Positions 23,913 to 37,807 of a stretch of DNA of 64,000 nt are shown here, one piece after another. The notes beneath the pieces were generated by a model. The model was given only the letters and a program-made list of their open reading frames with translations, was not told the DNA's origin and did no database searches. The DNA is from Singulisphaera sp. GP187 (GTDB lineage: Bacteria > Planctomycetota > Phycisphaerae > Phycisphaerales > SM1A02): NCBI GenBank assembly GCA_945862215.1, contig CAMAXY010000008.1:1-64000 (forward strand), given 5' to 3'. How positions within the stretch are numbered: position 1 is the first letter of the stretch; every line of letters begins with the position of its first letter. Position numbers and translations under genes: made by a program.

Positions 23913-23937
23913 TTGCCATTGTGAGTTTCTTGGCGAA

Positions 23938-23973
23938 GCCTCGGATACAGCCTCGGATACAGCCTCGGATACA
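23938..23973. repeat. Three perfect copies of a 12-bp tandem repeat
   Basis: Three copies of GCCTCGGATACA begin 25 bases after the photolyase stop. The core CGGATACAGCC also begins each ~179-bp unit that follows, so this array is the left end of a larger repeat cluster. No gene uses it. Confidence 0.95.
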
Positions 23974-24323
23974 GCCGCGGAATTGCATAAGAGGGCAGCC
24001 GTGAAAAGATCCCGCCGGGCTCAGACAGTCCTCGGCGACCGACACGATCTGGTTTACGAAATTTTATTGCAAGTGCAGTCGGGGGGCCTGCGGAACTCGC
24101 CCGGCAGAATTTTTCAACGGCTGGATACGCAAGTTGAAGTGCGACGGATACAGCCGCGGATTACACATATGAGGGAAGCCGTGAAAAGATCCCGCCGGGC
24201 TCAGACAGTCCTCGGCGACCGACACGATCTGGTTTACGAAATTTAATTGCAGGTGCAGTCGTCCGCCTGCGGAACTCGCCCGGCAGAATTTTTCAACGGC
24301 TGTGTACGCAAACAGATGCACGA
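23966..24323. repeat. Two direct copies of a ~179-bp unit with internal inverted repeats
   Basis: Unit 1 is 23966-24144 and unit 2 is 24145-24323; each begins CGGATACAGCCGCGG. A block of 64 bases (24001-24064 and 24181-24244) is identical. Inside each unit, about 25 bases at the left (CAGCCGTGAAAAGATCCCGC and the following GGGC) are nearly complementary to the right end (GCCCGGCAGAATTTTTCAAC then GGCTG), so a ~128-base segment (23996-24123; 24176-24302) could fold into a large hairpin. A third unit start follows at 24324. It could be a miniature mobile element, a palindromic intergenic repeat or a structured RNA; no transposase or tRNA-like feature is near. Confidence 0.85.
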
Positions 24324-24328
24324 CGGAA

Positions 24329-24364
24329 ACAGCCACAGCCACAGCCACAGCCACAGCCACAGCC
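24329..24364. repeat. Six copies of a 6-bp tandem repeat
   Basis: Six perfect ACAGCC hexamers end the repeat cluster just before the 3' end of the minus-strand transporter gene. The hexamer is part of the CGGATACAGCC core of the larger units, which suggests local slippage from that core. Confidence 0.95.
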
Positions 24365-24398
24365 GCAGTCTCAGTTGAAACAGTTATTAAAGTTGATT

Positions 24399-25884: not shown

Positions 25885-26169
25885 ATGCAAATCGCTGAAT
25901 TCCAAACATTGATTCGATCGCGCTATGACGAGACTGATCGCGCACGGGGACCTTCCAAAACATTTGTCTGGTTCGCTGAGGAATTTGGCGAATTGGCGCA
26001 CGCAATCGGCAAGCATGAACGAGGTGATGGGGATCCAGCAAATTTGCGCGAAGAATTCGCCGATTGCTTGGCGTGGATGTGCACGCTTGCAAACATTTGC
26101 GATGTTGATCTCGAACAAGCGATTCGCGAAAAATATTTGACCGACGGTGGACCGAAAGGCACAAAATGA
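25885..26169 (+). CDS. MazG-like nucleotide pyrophosphohydrolase
   Basis: A 94-residue all-alpha protein with the metal-binding pattern of the MazG superfamily: EEFGELAHAI in the first helix pair and EEFADCLAWM later. Such enzymes hydrolyse non-canonical or excess NTPs. It is half the length of full MazG, typical for MazG-like single-domain proteins. It overlaps the HIT gene by four bases (ATGA), so the two are co-translated; both act on nucleotides. Confidence 0.8.
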   Translation: MQIAEFQTLIRSRYDETDRARGPSKTFVWFAEEFGELAHAIGKHERGDGDPANLREEFADCLAWMCTLANICDVDLEQAIREKYLTDGGPKGTK

Positions 26170-26624
26170 CATCAGTGTGCGGCGTGTGTGCAATCCACGA
26201 AAACGAGATGCTTGGCGAGCTTGTCGCTTGGGAAAGTGAGCGATGGATTCTTCGACATCACGCTGCTCCGGCCCCATTGGCTGGCTGGTTTCTGTTGGAC
26301 ACGAAGCGACATGTCGCAAGCGCCGCAGACTTTGATGATCTTGAAGAGGCAGAATTCGCTCAAGTTCTTGGTGCTGCGATGCGCGCAATTCGCAGTGCGG
26401 TTGACGTTCCTCGTGTCTATGTGATTCTGTTCGGTGAAGGCGCTCAACATGTGCATGCGCATCTCATTCCGCGCGATCCGTCGCAGTCTGGAACTGCTGC
26501 GTGGGAGATTGCCGATTGGTACAGAGCGGTTGATTCTGGAAAGCGCACCGCCGCGCCATCAGATGAAGTTGCGCGTGCAGTGCAGCGAGTTCGAGAAGAA
26601 ATGCGGACGGCAGTTAAGATTTGA
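26166..26624 (+). CDS. HIT-family nucleotide hydrolase/transferase
   Basis: The 152-residue product has a HIT motif, HVHAHLIPRD (H-x-H-x-H pattern), with a strand pair before it (VYVILFGEG). Cysteines VCGVCAIHENE at the N-terminus look like a partial zinc knuckle seen in many HIT proteins. The family acts on nucleotidyl phosphoramidates or dinucleoside polyphosphates. Its last 11 bases overlap the 3' end of the convergent flavoprotein gene. Confidence 0.88.
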   Translation: MTSVCGVCAIHENEMLGELVAWESERWILRHHAAPAPLAGWFLLDTKRHVASAADFDDLEEAEFAQVLGAAMRAIRSAVDVPRVYVILFGEGAQHVHAHLIPRDPSQSGTAAWEIADWYRAVDSGKRTAAPSDEVARAVQRVREEMRTAVKI

Positions 26625-27927
26625 TTGGATTGACTGCGATTGCAGCATGAGCTGCTGCAGTTCCTGCAACGAAACCACTTGCCCAAGCCCACTGAAAACT
26701 GAATCCTCCGATTCGCCCATCGACATCGAGCATTTCTCCACAAAGAAAAAGTCGCGGACATTTCAGGCTTTCAAGTCGATCGATGTTCAGTTCAGCCAAG
26801 GGCACTCCTCCAGCTGTCGTTTCTGCGGCTGTAAATCCGCGCGTTCCACTTGGGATGACTTCGCATGCAGTCAGGCTTCGTACAAGCGAATTGCGTCTTT
26901 CACGCGTCATTTGTTGCACTCCACATGCTGGATCGACGGCAGCTTGCAAACACGCTGCGCGAAGAAATCGCTCTGGAAGTCGTCCTCGAAGAAAAGCCAA
27001 AAGACTTTGTCCTTTCGTTTGCACGAGTTCCTGCTCGAGCGATTCTGATCGCACTCCAGGCATCCAATTGATTCTCAAACGCGCATTTGGATCGACATCC
27101 AAAAGATGAAGCCAGTGTCGACTGACATCGAGGACCGCTGGCCCAGTGAGACCGAAATGTGCGCAAAGCACTGCGCCGCAAACGGGAGCAATTGGCTTGC
27201 CAGCCATATCGCGGGCTGGCGTTCCATCAGCACGAATCGCCGTCAATTCTGCGGGAAGTGCAAGACCGCTGAGCGCCGTCAGCCAATGATCGCTTTGGAG
27301 AGTGAGTGGAACAAGAGCGGGGACGACGAGAGGGGTGATCGAATGTCCCAGGGATCGAGCGATTGTGAAACCGTGGCCGTCTGATCCAGATTTTGGAAGG
27401 CTCATACCACCCATACAAAGGATGACGGTGCGAGCGAGCATTTTCTCTGCACCGAATTGAATCTGGAAGCCACCATCAACTTGAACAACACTTTCAACTC
27501 GTTGAGGGTGAAGGATTTTCACTCCTGCTGAATGCGCAGCACTCACCAGCGCATCAAGCACACTTCGAGCTTTATCGGTCGTGGGAAAAAGTTTCCCAGT
27601 TTCCTCGCGCTTCAGTCCAACTCCACATTCTGTGAAAAAATCGATTGTTGATTCGACTGGGAATCGGCGCAGAATTCTTTTAATCAACTGCGGTGAGCCG
27701 CCTGAATAGTCTCGTTCATCAACTGCGTGGTGCGTGACATTGCATCTGCCGCCGCCTGCAACAAGAATCTTTGCGCCAAGTGTTCGAGCACCGTCGATGG
27801 CAACGACTTGTAGAGTCGGACTTTCGCGCGCTGCCCAAATTGCAGCGAATAGTCCAGCAGCACCTGCGCCAATGATTGCAATGTCAACGGGCGGGTGAGA
27901 GAGAGTGTCAGCGCTCGAATCGTTCAC
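26614..27927 (-). CDS. HI0933/YhiN-type flavoprotein
   Basis: A 437-residue FAD-binding protein. The N-terminal dinucleotide loop is IIGAGAAGLFAAIWAARES; GGGRCNVTH, PKSGSDGHGFTIARSLGH, GLTGPAVLDVSRHW and the C-terminal FLCGEMLDVDGRIGGFSFQWAWASG are features of the HI0933-type group (YhiN, BaiN relatives). The physiological reaction of most members is unknown; some reduce steroids or other double bonds. It is the last gene of a minus-strand run and overlaps the M14 gene by four bases. Confidence 0.9.
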   Translation of the reverse strand: MNDSSADTLSHPPVDIAIIGAGAAGLFAAIWAARESPTLQVVAIDGARTLGAKILVAGGGRCNVTHHAVDERDYSGGSPQLIKRILRRFPVESTIDFFTECGVGLKREETGKLFPTTDKARSVLDALVSAAHSAGVKILHPQRVESVVQVDGGFQIQFGAEKMLARTVILCMGGMSLPKSGSDGHGFTIARSLGHSITPLVVPALVPLTLQSDHWLTALSGLALPAELTAIRADGTPARDMAGKPIAPVCGAVLCAHFGLTGPAVLDVSRHWLHLLDVDPNARLRINWMPGVRSESLEQELVQTKGQSLLAFLRGRLPERFLRAACLQAAVDPACGVQQMTRERRNSLVRSLTACEVIPSGTRGFTAAETTAGGVPLAELNIDRLESLKCPRLFLCGEMLDVDGRIGGFSFQWAWASGFVAGTAAAHAAIAVNPIKS

Positions 27928-29678
27928 GGCTTCGCAGAAAGAGTAAAACTCTCCTCGATATCACGGAATTTCTCGCCGCTATATTTCACTCGAACTGCAG
28001 CGCCAGCTTTACCTTGCACGATGAATCGAAAAGTTTCTGTTGAAAGTCCAGTGATTCCTCCTTCGACGGCAAGTTCCTGCGGATTGAAACGAACAGGTTC
28101 GAATGTGGTGCCAAGTCGTTGTGGCATCGGGCCAGCGGAGACAACGGTTATGTTGGCTCCGTCGACTGTCAATCGATCAGGCATTCCGATGTGCTTCTTC
28201 TCTGCACGCACAGTGCGGGTTGGTATGCGGCGATCATTGGCGATTTCAATCGTAATCATCCAAAGGCCATCACTCATCTGCTTGATGAGAATGGACTGGA
28301 ATCGAAGCAGTGGCATCTGCTCGGCGTGAAATGCGGTGAAGGCAAAGTTTCGGTGCGCTTCTTCTTCCAACATAAAAGGGGGCGGAATTCGGCTTGACCA
28401 TTTATTCCCACCGCCGATCAAGACAGTTCCATATTCGGGATGCTGCATTTCTTTCCAGTCTGTCGTTGTCTGTCCAAAGAGCAAGCGATCGCGCCAATGA
28501 GTCATCTGTTCTGGTGAAGGATCAGATCCATTTTGCAGAATGCGCTTGTCACTCCAGAGTTCGTTGGTGAAGGTGATCACCCCAAGCGATTCTGCGAGCC
28601 AATTCACAAATCCGCCGTGAACGGTGTAAAGATCCTGATAGATCACCATTGATCGATAGAAGGGGAGCATCTCTGCACCAACATTTGCAATCGAGTCATA
28701 TGTTGCTCGATCGGCTCCGACATATTCACCCTCCAGATAATTTGCGCCCGGTCCGCGCAAAATCATTCCGCCAGCATTGTGATAACTCTGGCCTGCGGCA
28801 ATGTTGGGATGCTTCAAAATCCACTGTGAAATAGCCTTTGTTTCTGGGAAACAAAATGGAAAGTCTCCAGCACCGCCTTGCACATGTTCTGGCTGCCAGT
28901 CGGCGGCCCAATTTCGATTCATGTCATAACCACCTGGGCCGTCTTCGTTGACTCGGCCATCACCATCATTGTCGATTCCTTCACTCCCAGCCATGGACCA
29001 CGCTCCATACTCCATCGTTCCGTCAGGACGAAGTTCTGTCGATACGCGTTCGAGAATGCGCGGATCGCGTGCATTTCGGCGATGCGAACCATGTGGATCT
29101 TTTCGCCACATCTGTCCGATGGAACCATCACCGTCAAGATCATCTGGTCCATCTTCATCGCAGACCCCATCTCGATCATCATCCGTGGGTTGCATTCCAG
29201 TTCGCGAGGAGTGCGGACTATTTTGCTGGTTGAACCAGTTCGCGCGTCCATCTGGATTGACTGCAGGAAGAAAATAGAAAGCGCATCGATCGACGAGTTC
29301 CGTCAACGCCGGAACTTTTCCGTACGCGCGGCAGAGATAGTCGACGGAATACATCACCGTTTCAGTCGCTTGGATTTCATTTCCATGAATGTTGCCATCA
29401 ATCCACATCGCAGGCTTGGAAGTATCTGCGCCAGTCGCTGGATTATTGAGAATGATGACAATCAGTGGTCGATTCTGCGATGTTCTGCCGATTTCCTGAA
29501 GTGAGAGCAAATTTGGATACGCAGTCACCAAATCATTCGCCATCTTGAGCACATCTGGATAGTCATAGAAACGATTCCATGCAATCAGGACTTTGCCAGG
29601 CAATTGCTGTTGCGCTGATGCCGATGCGACTGGAATCATGATGATGAGTAGTGTTGAAAACAATCTTTTAAAATTCAC
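27924..29678 (-). CDS. Secreted M14 zinc carboxypeptidase
   Basis: From its GTG start the protein has 584 residues: a signal peptide (VNFKRLFSTLLIIMIPVASA), the M14 fold with zinc ligands His98 and Glu101 (GNIHGNE) and His300 (QSYHNAGG), the substrate-binding NR pair at about 254-255 (DMNRNW) and catalytic Glu373 (TFTNELW). Two DxDxDG-like inserts (near 165-185 and 235-245) may bind Ca2+. The ATG at 29750 would add 24 residues inside the upstream gene; the GTG overlaps the previous stop (GTGA). A C-terminal ~130-residue beta domain follows the catalytic unit. It is intact, unlike its upstream paralogue. Confidence 0.9.
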   Translation of the reverse strand: MNFKRLFSTLLIIMIPVASASAQQQLPGKVLIAWNRFYDYPDVLKMANDLVTAYPNLLSLQEIGRTSQNRPLIVIILNNPATGADTSKPAMWIDGNIHGNEIQATETVMYSVDYLCRAYGKVPALTELVDRCAFYFLPAVNPDGRANWFNQQNSPHSSRTGMQPTDDDRDGVCDEDGPDDLDGDGSIGQMWRKDPHGSHRRNARDPRILERVSTELRPDGTMEYGAWSMAGSEGIDNDGDGRVNEDGPGGYDMNRNWAADWQPEHVQGGAGDFPFCFPETKAISQWILKHPNIAAGQSYHNAGGMILRGPGANYLEGEYVGADRATYDSIANVGAEMLPFYRSMVIYQDLYTVHGGFVNWLAESLGVITFTNELWSDKRILQNGSDPSPEQMTHWRDRLLFGQTTTDWKEMQHPEYGTVLIGGGNKWSSRIPPPFMLEEEAHRNFAFTAFHAEQMPLLRFQSILIKQMSDGLWMITIEIANDRRIPTRTVRAEKKHIGMPDRLTVDGANITVVSAGPMPQRLGTTFEPVRFNPQELAVEGGITGLSTETFRFIVQGKAGAAVRVKYSGEKFRDIEESFTLSAKP

Positions 29679-31384
29679 GGGATGACCTCCGATGGCAGCG
29701 TGACTTTCTCGCCAGTGATCGAGGCGCGATATGTTCCGCTTGGTTTCCAAGTTGCTTCAAGAATGATTGGTTCAGATGATGATGACTCAACGAGCCACCG
29801 AAATGACTTGCGTCCACCAGCGCCAGTCAGTCCATCGATGATGGTCATTCGTTGGCCAGAGAGAATTCGATATTTTGGAGTAGAAATCCGAACAATAATT
29901 GGGAAGGGTTTGTGATTGATTCGCCCCATTTCCGTGACGGTCGGCAACCAACCATCATTCACAATCTCCGCTTCGATTTCATAGATGCCAGGTGCAGTCA
30001 ATTTCGAAGTTAAATTACAAAGAGAAATCTTCGGTTGTCGCTTTGCCAGTTCGCTCAGAAATGCAGCGACCGCATCTGCGATCTTGGGGATTTCACTCGG
30101 AGGCGGATTTGATCGGAAACCAGTGAGAAATCCACCAATTTCAACTGGACCAAGAGTTGGATGATTGAAGGGTGTCCAAGGGAGAAATCCTCGACCTGCT
30201 TGATCACGGTCGCTCCACGCAAGCCATCCAGCGGCTTCTTCATCGGCAGGTTTTTCAGGAGGCGCAGGTGTTGCAGGCGCAGTGGCAACAGCTGGCGCAG
30301 CGGGATCAACTGGCGCAGCGGGAACAGGTGAAGGATCTGGTCGGCCCCAAACTTGAGTCGCAAATGTTGGAATTCCTCGATGGGCATAGAGCCAAAGTGC
30401 GAATGAGCCTGATGGATCACACTCAGTCGAACGAGCTTGGCCAGAAAGTTCGCGCCACTTGCGTCCCATTTCTTCCCAAGTTGCAGCGTCGCCAGAATCC
30501 AAAGCAATTGGAGTTTTCCCAGTGACATCGCGCGCTTTCGAATCCGGAGTCTTCACCAAATTATCCCAGCGTCCAATCACAAGTGCGCCGATGATCCGCG
30601 GATGTTCAAGCACGAACTTCACAAGTGATTGCGATTCGGGCTCACTCAATTGAAACTGGCCAGCTGAGGGATTGAATTCAGGCCAAAGATGTGGAAAGTT
30701 GCGGTCAATATCAACGCCACCTATGTCATCTTCAGCAATGAGTCCGTCGTGATCTGAGTCCAAACCTTCGGTATAAAGCGTATAAATTGCTCGTTGATCT
30801 TTCGTTGTGTCTGGAGTTCGCAGCAGTCGAGGCTCGCCTGGATCTGCGAGATGAGTTGGCGGATCATTCGCAGGTGGGTTGAGCCTGCGCATCATCGTGA
30901 TTGCGCCATCAGCGTTGATGTCTTGCGCAGGATCTTCATCGATGCGTCCATCGCGATCTTCGTCGACTGGTCTGGCATTGCGATTTGCGCGACCATCTGA
31001 TTTCATGAAGGTATCGAGAAACACATCAGGATTCGCGCACGGGATGACATAAAAAGTATTCTTCTTCAGGATCTCTGGCATTTCAAGAAGTTTCTTGATT
31101 GCTGCGACGGAGATTGCAACGGAACTCGGACGACTTCCATCGAGTCCGCTGACAAGAAGGATTGCGGGTTTCTTCTCTGCATCGACAATATTTTCACTGA
31201 GTGTTATCAATTCAATCGGCTGGCCAGTCCATGATTTTCCGATGGTGGCAATCGATGCTCTTGCTGGATTGTTTTGGACAATCGTGTTCACTTGCACCAT
31301 CGCATCTCGCACAGAAGTGTTCTCTGCAACCGACGGGTCCGTGAAGAGTCCCAATGTAAGAATTGTGAGCGGAATCCAGAACAT
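29675..31384 (-). CDS. M14-family pseudo-peptidase (zinc ligands lost)
   Basis: This 569-residue paralogue keeps the M14 outline: signal peptide (MFWIPLTILTLGLFTDPSVA), ANPDVFLDTF, DxDxDG-like repeats (DEDRDGRIDEDP, DSDHDGLIAEDD), DIDRNFPHLWPEF, a PE-helix (LSEPESQSLVKF) and a C-terminal beta domain. Aligned to the intact downstream protein, the zinc ligands are replaced: His to Asp82, Glu to Arg85, His to Asp274, and the catalytic Glu to Gln344. A Pro/Ala-rich insert lies near 352-378. It cannot be a normal carboxypeptidase and probably binds peptide or the paralogue. Its stop overlaps the GTG of the active gene. Confidence 0.85.
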   Translation of the reverse strand: MFWIPLTILTLGLFTDPSVAENTSVRDAMVQVNTIVQNNPARASIATIGKSWTGQPIELITLSENIVDAEKKPAILLVSGLDGSRPSSVAISVAAIKKLLEMPEILKKNTFYVIPCANPDVFLDTFMKSDGRANRNARPVDEDRDGRIDEDPAQDINADGAITMMRRLNPPANDPPTHLADPGEPRLLRTPDTTKDQRAIYTLYTEGLDSDHDGLIAEDDIGGVDIDRNFPHLWPEFNPSAGQFQLSEPESQSLVKFVLEHPRIIGALVIGRWDNLVKTPDSKARDVTGKTPIALDSGDAATWEEMGRKWRELSGQARSTECDPSGSFALWLYAHRGIPTFATQVWGRPDPSPVPAAPVDPAAPAVATAPATPAPPEKPADEEAAGWLAWSDRDQAGRGFLPWTPFNHPTLGPVEIGGFLTGFRSNPPPSEIPKIADAVAAFLSELAKRQPKISLCNLTSKLTAPGIYEIEAEIVNDGWLPTVTEMGRINHKPFPIIVRISTPKYRILSGQRMTIIDGLTGAGGRKSFRWLVESSSSEPIILEATWKPSGTYRASITGEKVTLPSEVIP

Positions 31385-31387
31385 GTA

Positions 31388-32110
31388 TTACATCTCCGTT
31401 GAAAGCGTTGCGTTATCCATTGTGTACAAGCCAACGAGCCACTTTTCCACAACATACGGATCGATATGAAAAACACCTTCAAGCGTTCCGACACGGACAA
31501 CATGCCGCTTCGAGTTGTCGGCAGGCGTGACGAGTTTCACTTCGATTGCGTCATACGGCGAAGGCGGAACGCCGATGCAACAACCATCCCACTGATTCAG
31601 CATGACGAGACATTCACTCGATTCTGTGACAATGAGTGGAAATGCGATGAATCCAGAGATTCGGACATACGCACCATTGAGCATTGCAATGCGCTGTGGA
31701 ATTTCTCTTTCGCCCAGGCGGGGGATGTATGTGTCTGAGGTGCTCATGAGCAATTCCCATGACACTTGATATGGACTTTCTTTTGTTCCTTTGCCCTGGA
31801 TGACAAATTTCCCATCTGCTAAAATCTCTCCATCTTTTTCAACGAGTTTGCCTGGACGAACCTTTGCGTCTTTAATAGTTTGATCAAGCCCTTTGGTGAA
31901 TGTTCCAAGAGTTGGTGATGCAGCAGATGGCTCGGCGGCGAATGGTGTTTTCGGCGCGGCAGGTGGGGGAGTGATCGTTGCGACCGTAGTTGCTGCGCTT
32001 GTCGCAGTTTCTCTCTCCGAAGTGGGCGCGACTTCTGGGGCAGAAATTAAAAAGAGAGCAGCAAGTCCAGCGGCAATTAGAATCGAGATTGTGATCCAGA
32101 ATGTTCGCAC
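31388..32110 (-). CDS. DUF3299 protein, membrane anchored
   Basis: From GTG 32110 the product has 240 residues: a membrane helix (VRTFWITISILIAAGLAALF), an Ala/Pro/Thr-rich linker and a DUF3299-like domain with ISGFIAFPLIV and LNQWDGCCIGVPPSPYDAIEV. The function of the domain is unknown; in gammaproteobacteria DUF3299 genes commonly stand with an ABC ATPase and an FtsX-type permease, sometimes described for zinc uptake. The frame continues upstream but there it only overlaps the permease gene, so that part is not counted. Stop to next start is 3 bases. Confidence 0.75.
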   Translation of the reverse strand: MRTFWITISILIAAGLAALFLISAPEVAPTSERETATSAATTVATITPPPAAPKTPFAAEPSAASPTLGTFTKGLDQTIKDAKVRPGKLVEKDGEILADGKFVIQGKGTKESPYQVSWELLMSTSDTYIPRLGEREIPQRIAMLNGAYVRISGFIAFPLIVTESSECLVMLNQWDGCCIGVPPSPYDAIEVKLVTPADNSKRHVVRVGTLEGVFHIDPYVVEKWLVGLYTMDNATLSTEM

Positions 32111-32135
32111 GGGTAGTTTCGTAGGAATTAAAAGA

Positions 32136-33461
32136 CTATGCGATTGGTCGCAAGTGTCGAGCAACAGGAGTGCGATAAGACTTAATTGCAGGAATGATTC
32201 CAGCCAGAGCAGCGAGCACAACTGCGCCAGCCATGACAAGCGCAGCCGAGCGAGCATCGATTGTTCCTGCGACTGTGATTCCAATGCGCTGTGCAAGAAT
32301 TGTGCTTGCAATTGAACTTCCACCTAAGGCAAGAATTGCCCCCAGTATCGCGCCAATCAGGCCAATCAACGTGCTTTCTGTGATGGCAAGAGCAAAGACT
32401 CTCCACGCACTTGCTCCTAGGACGCGCAAGACTGCAACTTGTCGGCGACGAAGTTCCATCGAAGCAACCATCGCAAGCATGATGCTGATCGCACTCGAGA
32501 CCAGCACCACAACCGCCATTGCAAGGAAGAGCCAGTCAATATCACCAACGATGGCCATCAATCGTCCGATCTGTTGTGCAGGTTGGGCAACTGTGATTGC
32601 CATGTCGCGGCGAAGTCGGTCGAATTGCCCAGCGATGGATGCAGATGCATCGCTGCCGGGTCGAGTTGGAAGTCGCAGAAGAATGCCTGTCACAAGTTTG
32701 TCAGCATCGGTCAAGTCTGCAGCTTCAACATGTTCATGTTCATGGGCATGATCGTGGCCTGCATGATCTTCCTCTGCCTCCGCTTCATGTTCTGCACGCG
32801 CGGCATTCTCTCGACGATCTTCTGCATGAATGATCCAAGTACTTTGCAGATTGGTAAAAAGCGCACGATCATGAGCAGATCCAGTCGGTTTCAGAATGCC
32901 AACAACCTCGTATGGATGGTCCGCATGTTGATGACCACCTTCTCTGCTCCCACCAGTTCCGTGAGAAAAGACAATTTTCTGACCGACGCTCAATCCATGT
33001 TCACTCGCAGCTTGCGATCCAGCGACGACCTGAAAATCTTCAGCAAATGCTTTCCCAGAGGCATATTGGAATGGTTGACCACTGACAGGTTCGAAGTTGC
33101 TCAAGAACTCTGTGGTTGTAGCCATGACTGGACTTCCGCGAAATGAATCGCCAAGTTGAGTTGGAATTGCCCATTGCCAAGGAAAACTATTCTTGATCTC
33201 TTCACATTTCGCCCATGCAATTGGATTCGCAGGAGCGTTGGCATAAAAAAGTCCGTTGAGAACTCCAACGAGTGGGCTTGCGTCCGCGCTCACGAGAAGA
33301 TGAATATTTCCAGTTCCGCGCCGAAATGCTTGCGATGCTGCTTCACGAAGCGACATCAGCACCAAGAGCAGCGCCACTGCAATGGCAACCATTGCGACGG
33401 TGACAGAACTTGCCAAGAGTCGTACACGAAGGCTTCGCAGCACGATGATCATGTCATTCAT
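32136..33461 (-). CDS. FtsX-type ABC permease with His-rich extracytoplasmic loop
   Basis: The 441-residue protein has the MacB/FtsX layout: one helix at 18-37, a large outer domain (about 40-300), then three helices (311-333, about 352-380, 404-425). The outer domain has a striking His/Glu/Asp cluster at 225-244, with seven His in twenty residues, and HQHADH at 177-182. That suggests Zn2+ or another transition metal is sensed or moved. Such permeases with LolD-like ATPases often act mechanically rather than as pores. It overlaps the ATPase gene by four bases. Confidence 0.88.
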   Translation of the reverse strand: MNDMIIVLRSLRVRLLASSVTVAMVAIAVALLLVLMSLREAASQAFRRGTGNIHLLVSADASPLVGVLNGLFYANAPANPIAWAKCEEIKNSFPWQWAIPTQLGDSFRGSPVMATTTEFLSNFEPVSGQPFQYASGKAFAEDFQVVAGSQAASEHGLSVGQKIVFSHGTGGSREGGHQHADHPYEVVGILKPTGSAHDRALFTNLQSTWIIHAEDRRENAARAEHEAEAEEDHAGHDHAHEHEHVEAADLTDADKLVTGILLRLPTRPGSDASASIAGQFDRLRRDMAITVAQPAQQIGRLMAIVGDIDWLFLAMAVVVLVSSAISIMLAMVASMELRRRQVAVLRVLGASAWRVFALAITESTLIGLIGAILGAILALGGSSIASTILAQRIGITVAGTIDARSAALVMAGAVVLAALAGIIPAIKSYRTPVARHLRPIA

Positions 33462-34156
33462 CGGACTGCCTCCGTTGGCGCAAACTGCGAAACTTCGACA
33501 ATTCTTGTGAATGCCTCGCGCAGAGAAGGATCGTGACTTGTCACGATCAGCGCAGCTCCCGCAGTTCGCGCAGCTTCTTTGATCAGATCAATTGCTGCGC
33601 GAGCGTTTGCAGGATCGAGGCTTGCAGTTGGTTCATCTGCAAGCACAACGCATGGTTCGCCTGCTACGGCACGCGCGACGGCCACACGTTGCTGTTGACC
33701 AACAGAAAGCATTTCGATTGGAGAATGTGGATCTGCGATTGCAAGTTTGCTCAGTGCAGATTCTGCGCGCGAACGCTGCTGAGAAGTCGAGTATCCCGCC
33801 AACATCAGCGCCATCATGACATTTTCAAGAGCTGTAAAACCTTGCAGCAAGTTGAAGGTCTGAAAGATCATTCCAATGTTCTTGCCACGAAATGTATCCC
33901 GCTGTGCGCCGTGAAGGCCTAAAATATTGGTCCCGCGGATTCGGATTTCGCCGGCGGAAGCATCATCGATTCCTGCAACCAAGTGAAGCAATGTCGACTT
34001 CCCAGATCCAGACGAACCTGCGAGCAGGACATGTTCTCCAGATGCAACATGAAAATATGGAATCGAAAGTTGGAAGCCTCTGCGATACGCAAAGTGCAAC
34101 CCTGAAATCTCAATTCCAGAAGTGGCGGCAGACTGTTCGGAAGATGCGCTGTTCAT
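33458..34156 (-). CDS. ABC transporter ATP-binding protein (LolD/MacB type)
   Basis: A 232-residue ATPase with Walker A GSSGSGKSTLLH, Q-loop IFQTFNLLQG, a signature LSVGQQQRVAVARA (usual LSGGQ, here LSVGQ) and Walker B VVLADEPTASLD. The FRGKNIGMIFQ pattern is that of the LolD/MacB group whose partner is an FtsX-type permease. The H-loop is TSHDPSL. It follows recG with 22 bases and is translationally coupled to the permease. Confidence 0.92.
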   Translation of the reverse strand: MNSASSEQSAATSGIEISGLHFAYRRGFQLSIPYFHVASGEHVLLAGSSGSGKSTLLHLVAGIDDASAGEIRIRGTNILGLHGAQRDTFRGKNIGMIFQTFNLLQGFTALENVMMALMLAGYSTSQQRSRAESALSKLAIADPHSPIEMLSVGQQQRVAVARAVAGEPCVVLADEPTASLDPANARAAIDLIKEAARTAGAALIVTSHDPSLREAFTRIVEVSQFAPTEAVR

Positions 34157-34178
34157 TTTTTAAGCCTAGTTCAATTGG

Positions 34179-36302
34179 TCAACCAATGTCGCTCAAACCT
34201 AAAGCTGCGCCATAAAGTCCAAGAACTCGGCGGCGAAGTGCAAGGTCGCACGATTCGGTCAAGTCACCACTCGTGCCGATCCAAGCTTGCGCATCACTTT
34301 TTGCATCTGTGAGCAGTAAAAAGTCTCGCGTCAAATCTGCAACTTGAAGCGGGGGAAGTCCAGATTGACGTGCGCCGAAGAATTCGCCTGGGCCGCGCAA
34401 TTTCAAGTCCATTTCCGCAATTTCAAAGCCGTCGGTGCTGTTGGCGATCGTATCGAATCGACCTTGCGCGATGTCGCTGGGAGGGTCGCCTATCAGCACG
34501 CAATATCCGGGCTTACCTCCGCGGCCGACTCGACCTCGCAACTGATGGAGTTGCGCAAGTCCAAATCGTTCTGCATGTTCGATGACCATGACAGTTGCGT
34601 TTGGAATATCAACACCAACTTCAATGATGATCGTCGCGACCAGCACGTCGATTTTCCCCGCGCGAAAGTCATCCATTACTTGATCGCACTCCGCACTCTT
34701 CATCTGTCCGTGCAGTTGGCCAATTCGACAACCGTGCAATGGTCCTTCTGCCAGACTCTTCGCATGGGAAGCAACATCCTTCAGTCCCATTTCGCTCTCT
34801 TGAATTGCAGGAACGACAACGAATGCTTGCTCACCACGTTCGATGCGTGTCTTGAGCCATGCGTACACCTCGAGCGCACGAAGAGTTGGCATGACACGAG
34901 TTGTCGGCGCAGTGCGCCCTGGCAAGAGTCCGCGCAGAGAACTGACTTCTAGATCGCCGAAGAAGGAAAGCGCGAGCGTTCGTGGAATAGGAGTCGCAGT
35001 CATGACAAGCGTGTGTGGAACTTGTTGTGGAGTTGCTCCCTTTGCCCGCAGCGCGGCGCGTTGTTCGACTCCGAAGCGATGTTGTTCGTCGATGATCGCG
35101 ATTGCCAAACTCTTAAAGCGAATTTCTTCGCCAAGAAGTGCGTGCGTGCCGATGGCCATATCGAAATCTCCAGATGCAAGTCCATTGACCACAATCGCGC
35201 GATCGGCGGTGCGCAAACTGCCAGTCATTCCAGCAATTCGAACTCGACTTCCTTTGAGCATCTCTTCCACAGTCCGCAGGTGCTGTTCTGCAAGAATTTC
35301 CGTTGGTGCAAGCAGAACTGCTTGATGCCCGTGCGCAATTGCATTCAACATTGCATGAACTGCGACGGCTGTTTTTCCTGATCCAACATCGCCTTGAAGT
35401 AGACGATTCATTGGAATCGTCTTGGCAAGGTCGTCAGAAATTTCTTTGCATACTTGACGCTGTGCATCAGTCAGTACAAACGGAATTCGCGCAAGAATTT
35501 TTTGCTCAATCGCTGCCGTCAGCACAAGCGCTGGCGCACTCATCGAATACCGCACTTGCCAGCGACGCATCGCCATCGCAAGTTGCAGGCAGAGAAGTTC
35601 GTCATAAGCCAAGCGTGTTCTGCCACGTTCCGCTTCGAATGCATCTTTGGGGGCGTGAACCATTCGATACGCATCGCGCAGAGAAACAAGGCCGCGCTGA
35701 GCGATGATCTCTGGTCGAATCAGATCGACAATCGATTCGAGCGCAGGTTGCAATACAGCTGTAAGAACTTTTTCGATCCTTGCCGTCGCCAATTCTTCGG
35801 TCGCCGAATAGATCGGTCGCAATCGCCCAGCACGAACTGGCACTTGATCATCTTCGCTCACTGGTTCCCAAAGTGGATTGACCATCTCGAGATATCCGCC
35901 GCGTACTTTCGCCCGACCTTTCGCAATCCCCAATTGCCCAGGATGAATTCGCTTCATTAGCCACGGTGCGTTGAACCAAACAAGTCGAATCGTGCCGCTC
36001 TCGTCGGCGAGAATCGCTTCGATTCTTGGTCGGCGAGATGGAACATGACGCACCTTTTGGATTTCGCCGCGAACGGTGCGGGTGACCGATGCTTCAGCAA
36101 GTTCTGTTGCCTCTTTCGCCTCGGTGACTGCAGCCTCTGCAACTTCGATTTCATATCGAATTGGAAGATGATTGAGCAAATCTCCAACAGTCCGCAATCC
36201 TAAGTATGCGAAACGTGCGCCGATCTGCGATCCGACTCCAGCGAGTTGGGTGATGGGCGCATCGAGAGCAATCTTTGTGCTTGGATCTACATCTGGACTC
36301 AC
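34179..36302 (-). CDS. recG: ATP-dependent DNA helicase RecG
   Basis: RecG rescues stalled forks and branch-migrates Holliday structures. The 707-residue protein has an N-terminal wedge domain (APITQLAGVGSQIGARF, then RPIYSATEE), helicase motif I LLQGDVGSGKTAVAVHAM, the DEQH box IIDEQHRFGVEQR, TATPIPRTLALSFFGDLE and motif VI QLRGRVGRGGKPGYC. The GTG start is chosen because an upstream ATG (36422) would run through the divergent xseA start. It is 17 bases from the xseA start, so the two genes share a very short promoter region. Confidence 0.93.
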   Translation of the reverse strand: MSPDVDPSTKIALDAPITQLAGVGSQIGARFAYLGLRTVGDLLNHLPIRYEIEVAEAAVTEAKEATELAEASVTRTVRGEIQKVRHVPSRRPRIEAILADESGTIRLVWFNAPWLMKRIHPGQLGIAKGRAKVRGGYLEMVNPLWEPVSEDDQVPVRAGRLRPIYSATEELATARIEKVLTAVLQPALESIVDLIRPEIIAQRGLVSLRDAYRMVHAPKDAFEAERGRTRLAYDELLCLQLAMAMRRWQVRYSMSAPALVLTAAIEQKILARIPFVLTDAQRQVCKEISDDLAKTIPMNRLLQGDVGSGKTAVAVHAMLNAIAHGHQAVLLAPTEILAEQHLRTVEEMLKGSRVRIAGMTGSLRTADRAIVVNGLASGDFDMAIGTHALLGEEIRFKSLAIAIIDEQHRFGVEQRAALRAKGATPQQVPHTLVMTATPIPRTLALSFFGDLEVSSLRGLLPGRTAPTTRVMPTLRALEVYAWLKTRIERGEQAFVVVPAIQESEMGLKDVASHAKSLAEGPLHGCRIGQLHGQMKSAECDQVMDDFRAGKIDVLVATIIIEVGVDIPNATVMVIEHAERFGLAQLHQLRGRVGRGGKPGYCVLIGDPPSDIAQGRFDTIANSTDGFEIAEMDLKLRGPGEFFGARQSGLPPLQVADLTRDFLLLTDAKSDAQAWIGTSGDLTESCDLALRRRVLGLYGAALGLSDIG

Positions 36303-36319
36303 GCTTATACGATAGACGC

Positions 36320-37807
36320 ATGGCTCGCAAACCCTTTGATCCTTCACTCGCTGCTGGCGGATTGTTCGACAAGCCAGCATCGCCCTTACCCGCGAAAGAC
36401 CAACCGAATGCTTCGGCAGCACTGGGAGTTTCGGCCCTCTCGCTGCTCATTCGAAATGCGCTTGAAGGTGGTGTTGGGACGGTTCATGTTGTTGGTGAGA
36501 TGTCCAACTTTCGGGCTGTACAAGGTCACTGGTATTTTTCTCTCAAGGACGCAGATGCTCGAATCGATTGCATGATGTTTCGGTCGGCAGCGGATCGAAG
36601 CGCTTGCAAACCGACAGATGGAATCGAGGTGATTATCACTGGGCAGGTGACTCACTATCCGCCTCAAGGTCGCACGCAAATCCAGTGTGCGAAATTGGAA
36701 TTGGCTGGAGCAGGGGATCTCGATGCGCAGTTTCGGCAACTCTGCTTTGAACTTCGTGGGCTAGGATATTTTGACGATTCCGCAAAAGTCAAGATTCCAG
36801 CGATGCCAATGTGCATCGCACTCTTGACCAGCGCTGGCAGTGCAGCGGAGGCGGATTGTCTCGATGCTGCTCGTCAGACTTTTCCATCTACGAAAATTAT
36901 TGCCGTCGACATTCGGGTCCAAGGGACGAATGCTGCGCAAGGAATTGCTCGTGCAATCACCGCTGTCGACACCTCTGCGAAAAGGCTTGGAATTGAAGTC
37001 ATTTTACTCGTTCGAGGAGGTGGAAGTCGCGAAGATCTGTGGGCATTCAACGAGCGTGTCGTTGCCGAAGCGATTCGTCGCTGCGTGACTCCTATCGTGA
37101 CGGGGATCGGGCACGAAAGCGATACCACGATTGCAGATCTCGTCTCTGATTTTCGCGCGGCAACGCCATCGCGGGCAGTCACTGAAGTTCTACCCAAGCG
37201 CGAAATTCTACACGAACAACTTTCTGCACTGACTCGACGACTCTCGCGTGCTATGACCACGCATTTCGAGCGCGCTCGTGGTCGTGTCGAACTTGCAGCA
37301 CGTTCGCGTGGCCTGGTTGATCCTCTCATTGGATTGTCAATTCATCACAATCGTTTGATGCGAAGCGCGACGGGACTTGTTCACGCCATGCGACAGAGAT
37401 CAAATCGCCGAGAGCAACTTCTCGCTGGTTCGATCGCGCGGCTTGCGCAAATTCATCCAACGAGTCGATTGCGTACGGCGGATGCGAGGATTACAGCAGC
37501 AACTGCAAGCTTGCGGCGGAGTGGTCGGACACTTGTTGACGCAGCGGATCGTCGCATCGAATCGGTGTCGCGCACGCTCGAAGCCATCGGCCCAATGGCA
37601 GTTTTACAACGGGGATATTCGCTGACCTTGAACTCCAGCGGAACGCCAGTTCGTAGCGCGGATTCGCTGCGCGTGGGCGAGAAAATTGAAACAGTTTTGG
37701 CAGATGGGCAAATTCGAAGCGTGGTTGATCACATTTCGCCTTCAAATTCGACGAGTGCATTACCAACAAAGCCTTCTGATGGCGGATCACTAGACTCCAC
37801 AGTATGA
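36320..37807 (+). CDS. xseA: Exodeoxyribonuclease VII large subunit
   Basis: XseA with XseB degrades single-stranded DNA. The 495-residue protein has an N-terminal OB-fold (LLIRNALEGG, VHVVGEMSNFRAVQGHWYF, LKDADARIDCMMF), the catalytic region (VLLVRGGGSREDLWAFNE, PIVTGIGHESDTTIADLVSD, RAATPSRA) and a long coiled coil, ending with VLQRGYSLT. The frame is open upstream to 36275, but the ATG at 36320 fits the usual N-terminus better. It overlaps xseB by four bases. Confidence 0.95.
   Translation: MARKPFDPSLAAGGLFDKPASPLPAKDQPNASAALGVSALSLLIRNALEGGVGTVHVVGEMSNFRAVQGHWYFSLKDADARIDCMMFRSAADRSACKPTDGIEVIITGQVTHYPPQGRTQIQCAKLELAGAGDLDAQFRQLCFELRGLGYFDDSAKVKIPAMPMCIALLTSAGSAAEADCLDAARQTFPSTKIIAVDIRVQGTNAAQGIARAITAVDTSAKRLGIEVILLVRGGGSREDLWAFNERVVAEAIRRCVTPIVTGIGHESDTTIADLVSDFRAATPSRAVTEVLPKREILHEQLSALTRRLSRAMTTHFERARGRVELAARSRGLVDPLIGLSIHHNRLMRSATGLVHAMRQRSNRREQLLAGSIARLAQIHPTSRLRTADARITAATASLRRSGRTLVDAADRRIESVSRTLEAIGPMAVLQRGYSLTLNSSGTPVRSADSLRVGEKIETVLADGQIRSVVDHISPSNSTSALPTKPSDGGSLDSTV

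Follow-up and report, generated by a model that had tools for sequence, protein, structure and literature searches.

What holds together a row of seven minus-strand genes running almost without intervening sequence from recG to a YhiN-type flavoprotein gene, and do the genes between these two ends form one system or more than one? The row lies in positions 1 to 64,000 of contig CAMAXY010000008.1 (assembly GCA_945862215.1, Singulisphaera sp. GP187), and this whole 64,000-nucleotide stretch is referred to here as the window. The host genome is a freshwater metagenome-assembled genome (MAG) of 2.79 Mb from the Phycisphaerales (Planctomycetota), 93% complete, and the closest named contigs come from Phycisphaerales and Planctomycetota MAGs, many of lake origin, including Lake Baikal. 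Between recG and YhiN lie genes for an ATP-binding cassette (ABC) ATPase, a permease, a DUF3299-type protein and two M14-family proteins, M14b and M14a. A sequence-only reading of this DNA had treated these five genes as one unit that delivers or senses zinc at the cell surface, with the secreted M14 enzyme using that zinc or responding to it. We consider a different answer the likely one, namely that the block is an inherited gene order holding two separable functional units: an ABC unit (ATPase, permease and DUF3299-type protein) and an M14 pair.

The compactness described in the sequence-only reading was borne out. All seven open reading frames (ORFs; in transcription order recG, ABC ATPase, permease, DUF3299, M14b, M14a and YhiN) are open, with spacings between −4 and 25 bases: 22 for recG-ATPase, −4 for ATPase-permease, 25 for permease-DUF3299, 3 for DUF3299-M14b, and −4 for both M14b-M14a and M14a-YhiN. 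Three of the genes begin with GTG (DUF3299 at 32110, M14a at 29678 and YhiN at 27927). The seven genes may well be co-transcribed.

The comparison with relatives drew on a family sample of 121 genomes from 45 genera and a class sample of 248 genomes. Recurrence of the block order in 11 family genera is far beyond chance, and the four-base overlaps recur too (ATPase-permease in 30/37 loci, M14b-M14a in 23/30, M14a-YhiN in 18/23). Across the 45 family genera, the ABC unit and the M14 pair are adjacent in 11 and both present but apart in 8, a count that includes pairs on different contigs, some of which could be contig breaks; of the remaining genera, the M14 pair occurs alone in 11 and the ABC unit alone in 5, and 10 lack both. 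Several of the apart cases (L064, L066, L067, L071 and L072) lie on longer contigs amid other neighbors. Outside the family, every one of the 11 genomes with both units has them apart, mostly on different contigs, and where the two share a contig they are separated by about 767 kb and 1.29 Mb (G046 and G224). The sequence-only reading had proposed the search for the same order and named separation in most relatives as the outcome that would count against it; outside the family this is what was found, and within it separation is partial, at 8 of the 19 genera holding both. Presence of one unit shows no significant correlation with presence of the other among the family genera (Fisher p 0.11).

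YhiN stands directly beside M14a in 11 genera of the family and recG adjoins the ABC unit in 7, and at two loci of one genus (L115 and L123) the order is recG-ATPase-permease-DUF3299-YhiN, with the M14 pair missing. Since YhiN, a housekeeping flavoprotein gene with no evident connection to peptidases, shows a linkage to the M14 pair no weaker than that of the ABC unit, adjacency is no proof of shared function. On the permease tree, linkage to M14 changes four times, two of them forced, and linkage to recG twice; because only four changes are needed, the M14 linkage looks inherited. The block is an arrangement inherited within one Phycisphaerales family through few independent events, and the two units would share a gene row by inheritance, with no joint action required. 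The whole block as a single functional system was rejected as the main explanation, because the two units come apart and YhiN shows the same degree of linkage.

Table 1. Features of the recG-YhiN block, in window coordinates
Feature	Position	Strand	Basis
M14a, secreted active-type M14 zinc carboxypeptidase, DxDxDG inserts	27924..29678	-	Pfam M14 5.5e-45
M14b, secreted M14-fold pseudopeptidase (dead twin)	29675..31384	-	Pfam M14 3.5e-16
ABC ATPase, LolD/FtsE/MacB type	33458..34156	-	Pfam ABC_tran 1.2e-30
MacB/LolE-type permease, large periplasmic domain, 441 residues	32136..33461	-	Pfam FtsX + MacB_PCD
Core His H167, H177, H179, H197, H212 of permease	32826..32963	-	Near-invariant in 119 Phycisphaerae permeases
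Poly-His loop, permease residues 225-244, HEAEAEEDHAGHDHAHEHEH	32730..32789	-	7 His in 20 residues
DUF3299-type protein: N-terminal membrane anchor, Ala/Pro-rich linker, C-terminal domain	31388..32110	-	Pfam, hhalign, gene order
recG helicase, head of block, inherited neighbor	34179..36302	-	Pfam RecG domains
YhiN/HI0933-family flavoprotein, inherited neighbor	26614..27927	-	TIGR00275 366 bits (cut-off 184); Pfam HI0933_like

The M14 pair is obligate, its active and dead genes strictly co-occurring within the class: of the 248 genomes, the 34 that carry one are precisely those that carry the other, and they span eight families. In 29/30 loci read, the M14b and M14a genes share 1 or 4 bases. 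Direct reading of the N-termini of both proteins gives signal-like sequences. In bovine carboxypeptidase A numbering, taken from a joint alignment of both twins, M14a keeps the ligands H69, E72 and H196 plus R145 and E270 in 52/52 sequences (H98, E101, H300, R255 and E373 in its own numbering), whereas the zinc ligands and the catalytic Glu are absent from 56/56 M14b twins, in full agreement with the earlier assignment of one active and one dead peptidase. The window M14b has Asp, Arg, Gly and Gln in place of H69, E72, H196 and E270; among the 56 twins, His69 is replaced by Asp in 51, Glu72 by Arg or His in 47, His196 by Gly in 54, and Glu270 mostly by Gln, Thr or Asn. Conservation of the replacement residues themselves suggests that M14b is an old, selected pseudoenzyme and not a product of decay. 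Its carboxypeptidase fold is supported by PDB profile matches and by a Foldseek match (E 6e-10) obtained with a model of moderate confidence (pLDDT, the predicted local distance difference test, 67.9).

Pseudopeptidases with an M14 fold and lost catalytic residues are known, and the available portion of a review of inactive metallopeptidases (PMC11266112) lists CPD domain III, AEBP1, CPXM1/2 and Ecm14; the M14 cases in that portion are all eukaryotic, with no bacterial one named. M14b resembles these proteins in fold and in the loss of catalytic residues, and differs from them in being bacterial, secreted and encoded directly ahead of an active partner. Measured against that excerpt, the active/dead pair appears to be undescribed and M14b to be an ancient bacterial pseudopeptidase, which offers a clean bacterial case of such a protein strictly kept with its active partner. 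The two secreted proteins would most likely form a hetero-complex, in which the dead M14b could stabilize, position or regulate the active M14a.

The ABC unit resembles systems already studied in other bacteria. The zrgABCDE genes of Vibrio include an ATPase (zrgC), a permease (zrgB), a DUF3299 protein (zrgE) and a DUF2796 protein (zrgA), all induced by zinc deficiency (PMC9817125), and systems of the Zrg/PA4064-66 kind are Zur-controlled and tied to zinc starvation (PMC9817125, PMC9820375, PMC11481552). Vibrio ZrgB is a MacB-like permease with four transmembrane segments and a large periplasmic domain (PMC9820375). The window permease gave an AlphaFold2 model with a pLDDT of 84.5, whose nearest Foldseek folds were MacB (5gko), LolCDE, HrtBA, YbbAP and FtsX, with FtsEX-EnvC also among the matches, and the top NCBIfam relatives of the ATPase were LolD, DevA and FtsE, all below their respective cut-offs. 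In a tblastn search, the permease matched the PA4065-type permease of Pseudomonas aeruginosa (4e-17), and the Pseudomonas record with the matching permease has the order DUF2796-ATPase-permease-DUF3299, that is, an operon of the PA4063-66 type. Across 80 named permease loci, an ATPase gene stands in front in 77 and a DUF3299 gene behind in 67; most of the 13 loci lacking DUF3299 behind stop shortly past the permease. The ATPase, permease and DUF3299 genes are homologous to Vibrio zrgCBE and Pseudomonas PA4064-66, the zinc background of the unit is well founded, and the sequence-only reading was right to place the genes in this company.

The ABC unit shares with ZrgABCDE the same three families and a MacB-like permease (PMC9817125 Table 1; PMC9820375), and departs from it in that ZrgA was not found, the His-rich stretch is on the permease, and the genes stand in a block with recG, the M14 pair and YhiN. 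With PA4063-PA4066 it shares the order ATPase-permease-DUF3299, a homologous permease and the residues H167, H179 and H212; the Pseudomonas operon differs in having a separate His-rich ZrgA (Pfam ZrgA 1.5e-56), a permease that lacks a poly-His loop, and an upstream Zur-core-like site matching at 11/14 positions. The type VII ABC systems MacB, LolCDE and FtsEX have the same fold and ATPase family as this unit, which is set apart from them by a conserved His site, a DUF3299 partner and the lack of an adaptor in the block.

The DUF3299-type protein is a borderline case. Pfam agreed with the earlier identification of the ATPase, the permease, both M14 proteins and YhiN, and for this protein placed DUF3299 (PF11736) on either side of its cut-off of 22 bits (21.3 bits in the protein search and 22.9 in the six-frame search). 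Profile-profile comparison with hhalign gave a probability of 80 to the DUF3299 proteins of Pseudomonas, Catenovulum and Alisedimentitalea, and the C-I-x-x-P-P-x-P motif, which lies within WDGCCIGVPPxPYDAIEV in the C-terminal domain, is common to the window protein and the DUF3299 proteins. In almost every relative whose sequence extends far enough, the gene also adjoins the ATPase-permease pair. The DUF3299 alignment gave no direct sequence match in the PDB, where 4hsp matches only the Pseudomonas protein. On a small contig of one relative (L030, G003:C75, 494-5145), a canonical DUF3299 stretch scoring 69 bits, with one in-frame stop, is found together with a CobW-type GTPase, ZnuA and an ABC ATPase, a further tie between DUF3299 and zinc from a contig that could be a contaminant.

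The histidines of the permease fall into two sets. The loop at residues 225-244 is as His-rich as the sequence-only reading had it, in a permease with 16 His among its 441 residues, and it is variable across relatives: at least five His occur in 28/55 M14-linked and 7/43 unlinked permeases, counts that are uncorrected for kinship. The loop was rejected as a marker of M14 linkage, since it is also present in L115 and L123, where M14 is missing, and relatedness is a confounder of the counts. The core set is nearly invariant, with H167 in 119, H177 in 118, H179 in 119, H197 in 118 and H212 in 117 of the 119 Phycisphaerae permeases. H167, H179 and H212 are common to the permeases of Pseudomonas, Catenovulum, Alisedimentitalea (Rhodobacterales), Deinococcus and Thermus, whereas paralogous permeases from the same organism family lack H167, H177, H179 and H197 and have a gap at the H212 column. 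Since three of the core His are kept across distant phyla and missing in paralogs, a metal site in the Zrg-type permease family, predicted from these conserved periplasmic residues, is plausible. The His-rich stretch would be an accessory that either the permease or, as in Pseudomonas and Vibrio, ZrgA can carry; in the Alisedimentitalea permease, a separate His-rich insert occupies the position equivalent to the poly-His loop. The Deinococcus radiodurans plasmid pMP1 and a Thermus plasmid (L078 and L080) carry permeases that keep the three core His, and there the permease and ATPase genes stand one small gene past an alkaline phosphatase gene and DUF3299 is not annotated.

Taken as a unit of its own, the ABC part of the block would be a type VII (MacB/LolE-like) machine of the Zrg/PA4064-66 kind, whose permease, set in motion by ATP, would do its work in the periplasm. 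Its conserved His site, helped in the host lineage by the His-rich loop, could bind zinc, another metal or the ligand of a metal, and the membrane-tethered DUF3299 domain would assist. The role of such a machine is debated, ZrgB/ZrgE-type proteins being regarded as a zinc importer in Vibrio and as a MacB-like exporter of metal complexes in Pseudomonas. A lineage with ATPase, permease and DUF3299, no ZrgA found, a His-rich stretch on the permease and three shared His supplies testable residues common to all, and these core His, together with the ancient active/dead M14 pair, are the most valuable leads from this locus.

That the unit exports a metal-ligand complex is a real, if tentative, possibility, which concerns direction only and is compatible with two separable units. 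The MacB/LolE fold is consistent with export, as is an HlyD-like adaptor gene ahead of the unit in Alisedimentitalea, and PA4063-66 has been proposed, from in vivo data, as an exporter of surplus cobalt, perhaps together with pyochelin (PMC11481552). Against export stands the lack of partner genes, in that no adaptor or outer-membrane channel gene of a MacA-MacB-TolC pump was found among the seven block genes, to which this search was limited; moreover, Vibrio ZrgA together with ZrgBC supports growth when zinc is limited (PMC9820375).

ZrgA (PF10986/DUF2796) gave no match above cut-off in the host genome or in 24 relatives, a search in which a diverged protein, or one in the missing part of the MAG, could have been missed. 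Weak PF10986 matches in five relatives were rejected, as all fell below the cut-off and three (G005, G006 and G040) fell inside ZnuA genes. ZnuA was not found in the host MAG, which may reflect incompleteness, and is present in 21 of the 25 genomes searched. No Zur/Fur-like site was found upstream of recG or the ATPase gene in a scan that recovered the Pseudomonas control and likewise gave none at the ZnuA genes of relatives, so that for this class the negative does not count either way. One FUR-family gene is present in the genome, on the same contig as the block and outside the window (G000:C8:70391).

The five-gene zinc system of the sequence-only reading, in which the M14 enzyme takes up or responds to zinc that the ABC unit supplies or detects, is unlikely by our assessment, although its premise of a Zrg-type unit with conserved periplasmic His has held. 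Beyond that homology, it can draw on the poly-His loop, the zinc enzyme encoded downstream, the adjacency in 11 genera and the higher frequency of His-rich loops in M14-linked permeases, uncorrected for relatedness as that frequency is. It is opposed by the separation of the units in 8/19 family genera and in 11/11 genomes outside the family, by L115 and L123, which keep the rest of the block and the His-rich loop without M14, by the equally firm linkage of YhiN and by the lack of a significant correlation in the presence of the two units. We give similarly little credence to a combined scheme, in which a class-wide M14 active/dead complex has its dead subunit gated or metal-loaded by a His-loop Zrg-type ABC machine in one family. 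FtsEX acts on cell-wall amidases through EnvC, which has a degenerate hydrolase domain. An analogous scheme, in which ATP hydrolysis by the ABC machine activates the M14 peptidase by way of the dead twin, would suit a permease of the same mechanical class with FtsEX-EnvC among its fold matches, a dead homolog placed beside the active one as expected of an adaptor, and a DUF3299-M14b gap of about 3 bases in most loci, but it is very improbable, as ABC-DUF3299 units occur without M14 in other bacteria and 11 genera of the family, along with genomes across the class, keep the M14 pair but lack the ABC unit, so that in those lineages the pair cannot depend on it.

Several points weigh against the two-unit explanation as well. 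A real functional link that some lineages have lost would also explain why the units adjoin in 11 genera with so few bases between the genes, and one genus (g7) keeps the ABC unit and the M14 pair together with neither recG nor YhiN alongside. Pfam support for the DUF3299 assignment is borderline, and ZrgA, the critical binding protein in Vibrio, was not found, hence the mechanism may differ. A functional link between the ABC unit and the M14 pair within the family is nevertheless a weak candidate, which the data do not favor. In genus g7 (L049, 13675-14406), an ArsR-type helix-turn-helix gene stands after the M14 pair, in the place of YhiN.

At the upstream end of the block, xseA lies back to back with recG, and since its ORF can start at 36320 there is little space for a promoter region ahead of recG. 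Scans for sigma-70 promoters and terminators gave fewer matches than in shuffled sequences and were hence uninformative. At the other end, a plus-strand ORF at 26166-26624, which we take to be of the HIT family, shares 11 bases with the 3' end of YhiN, and a convergent neighbor like it is present in most loci of the host genus. Farther along, downstream of a major facilitator superfamily gene, a 180-base unit is repeated in 1.9 copies with 91% matches (23966-24311), flanked by 12- and 6-base repeats (23937-23981 and 24329-24368).

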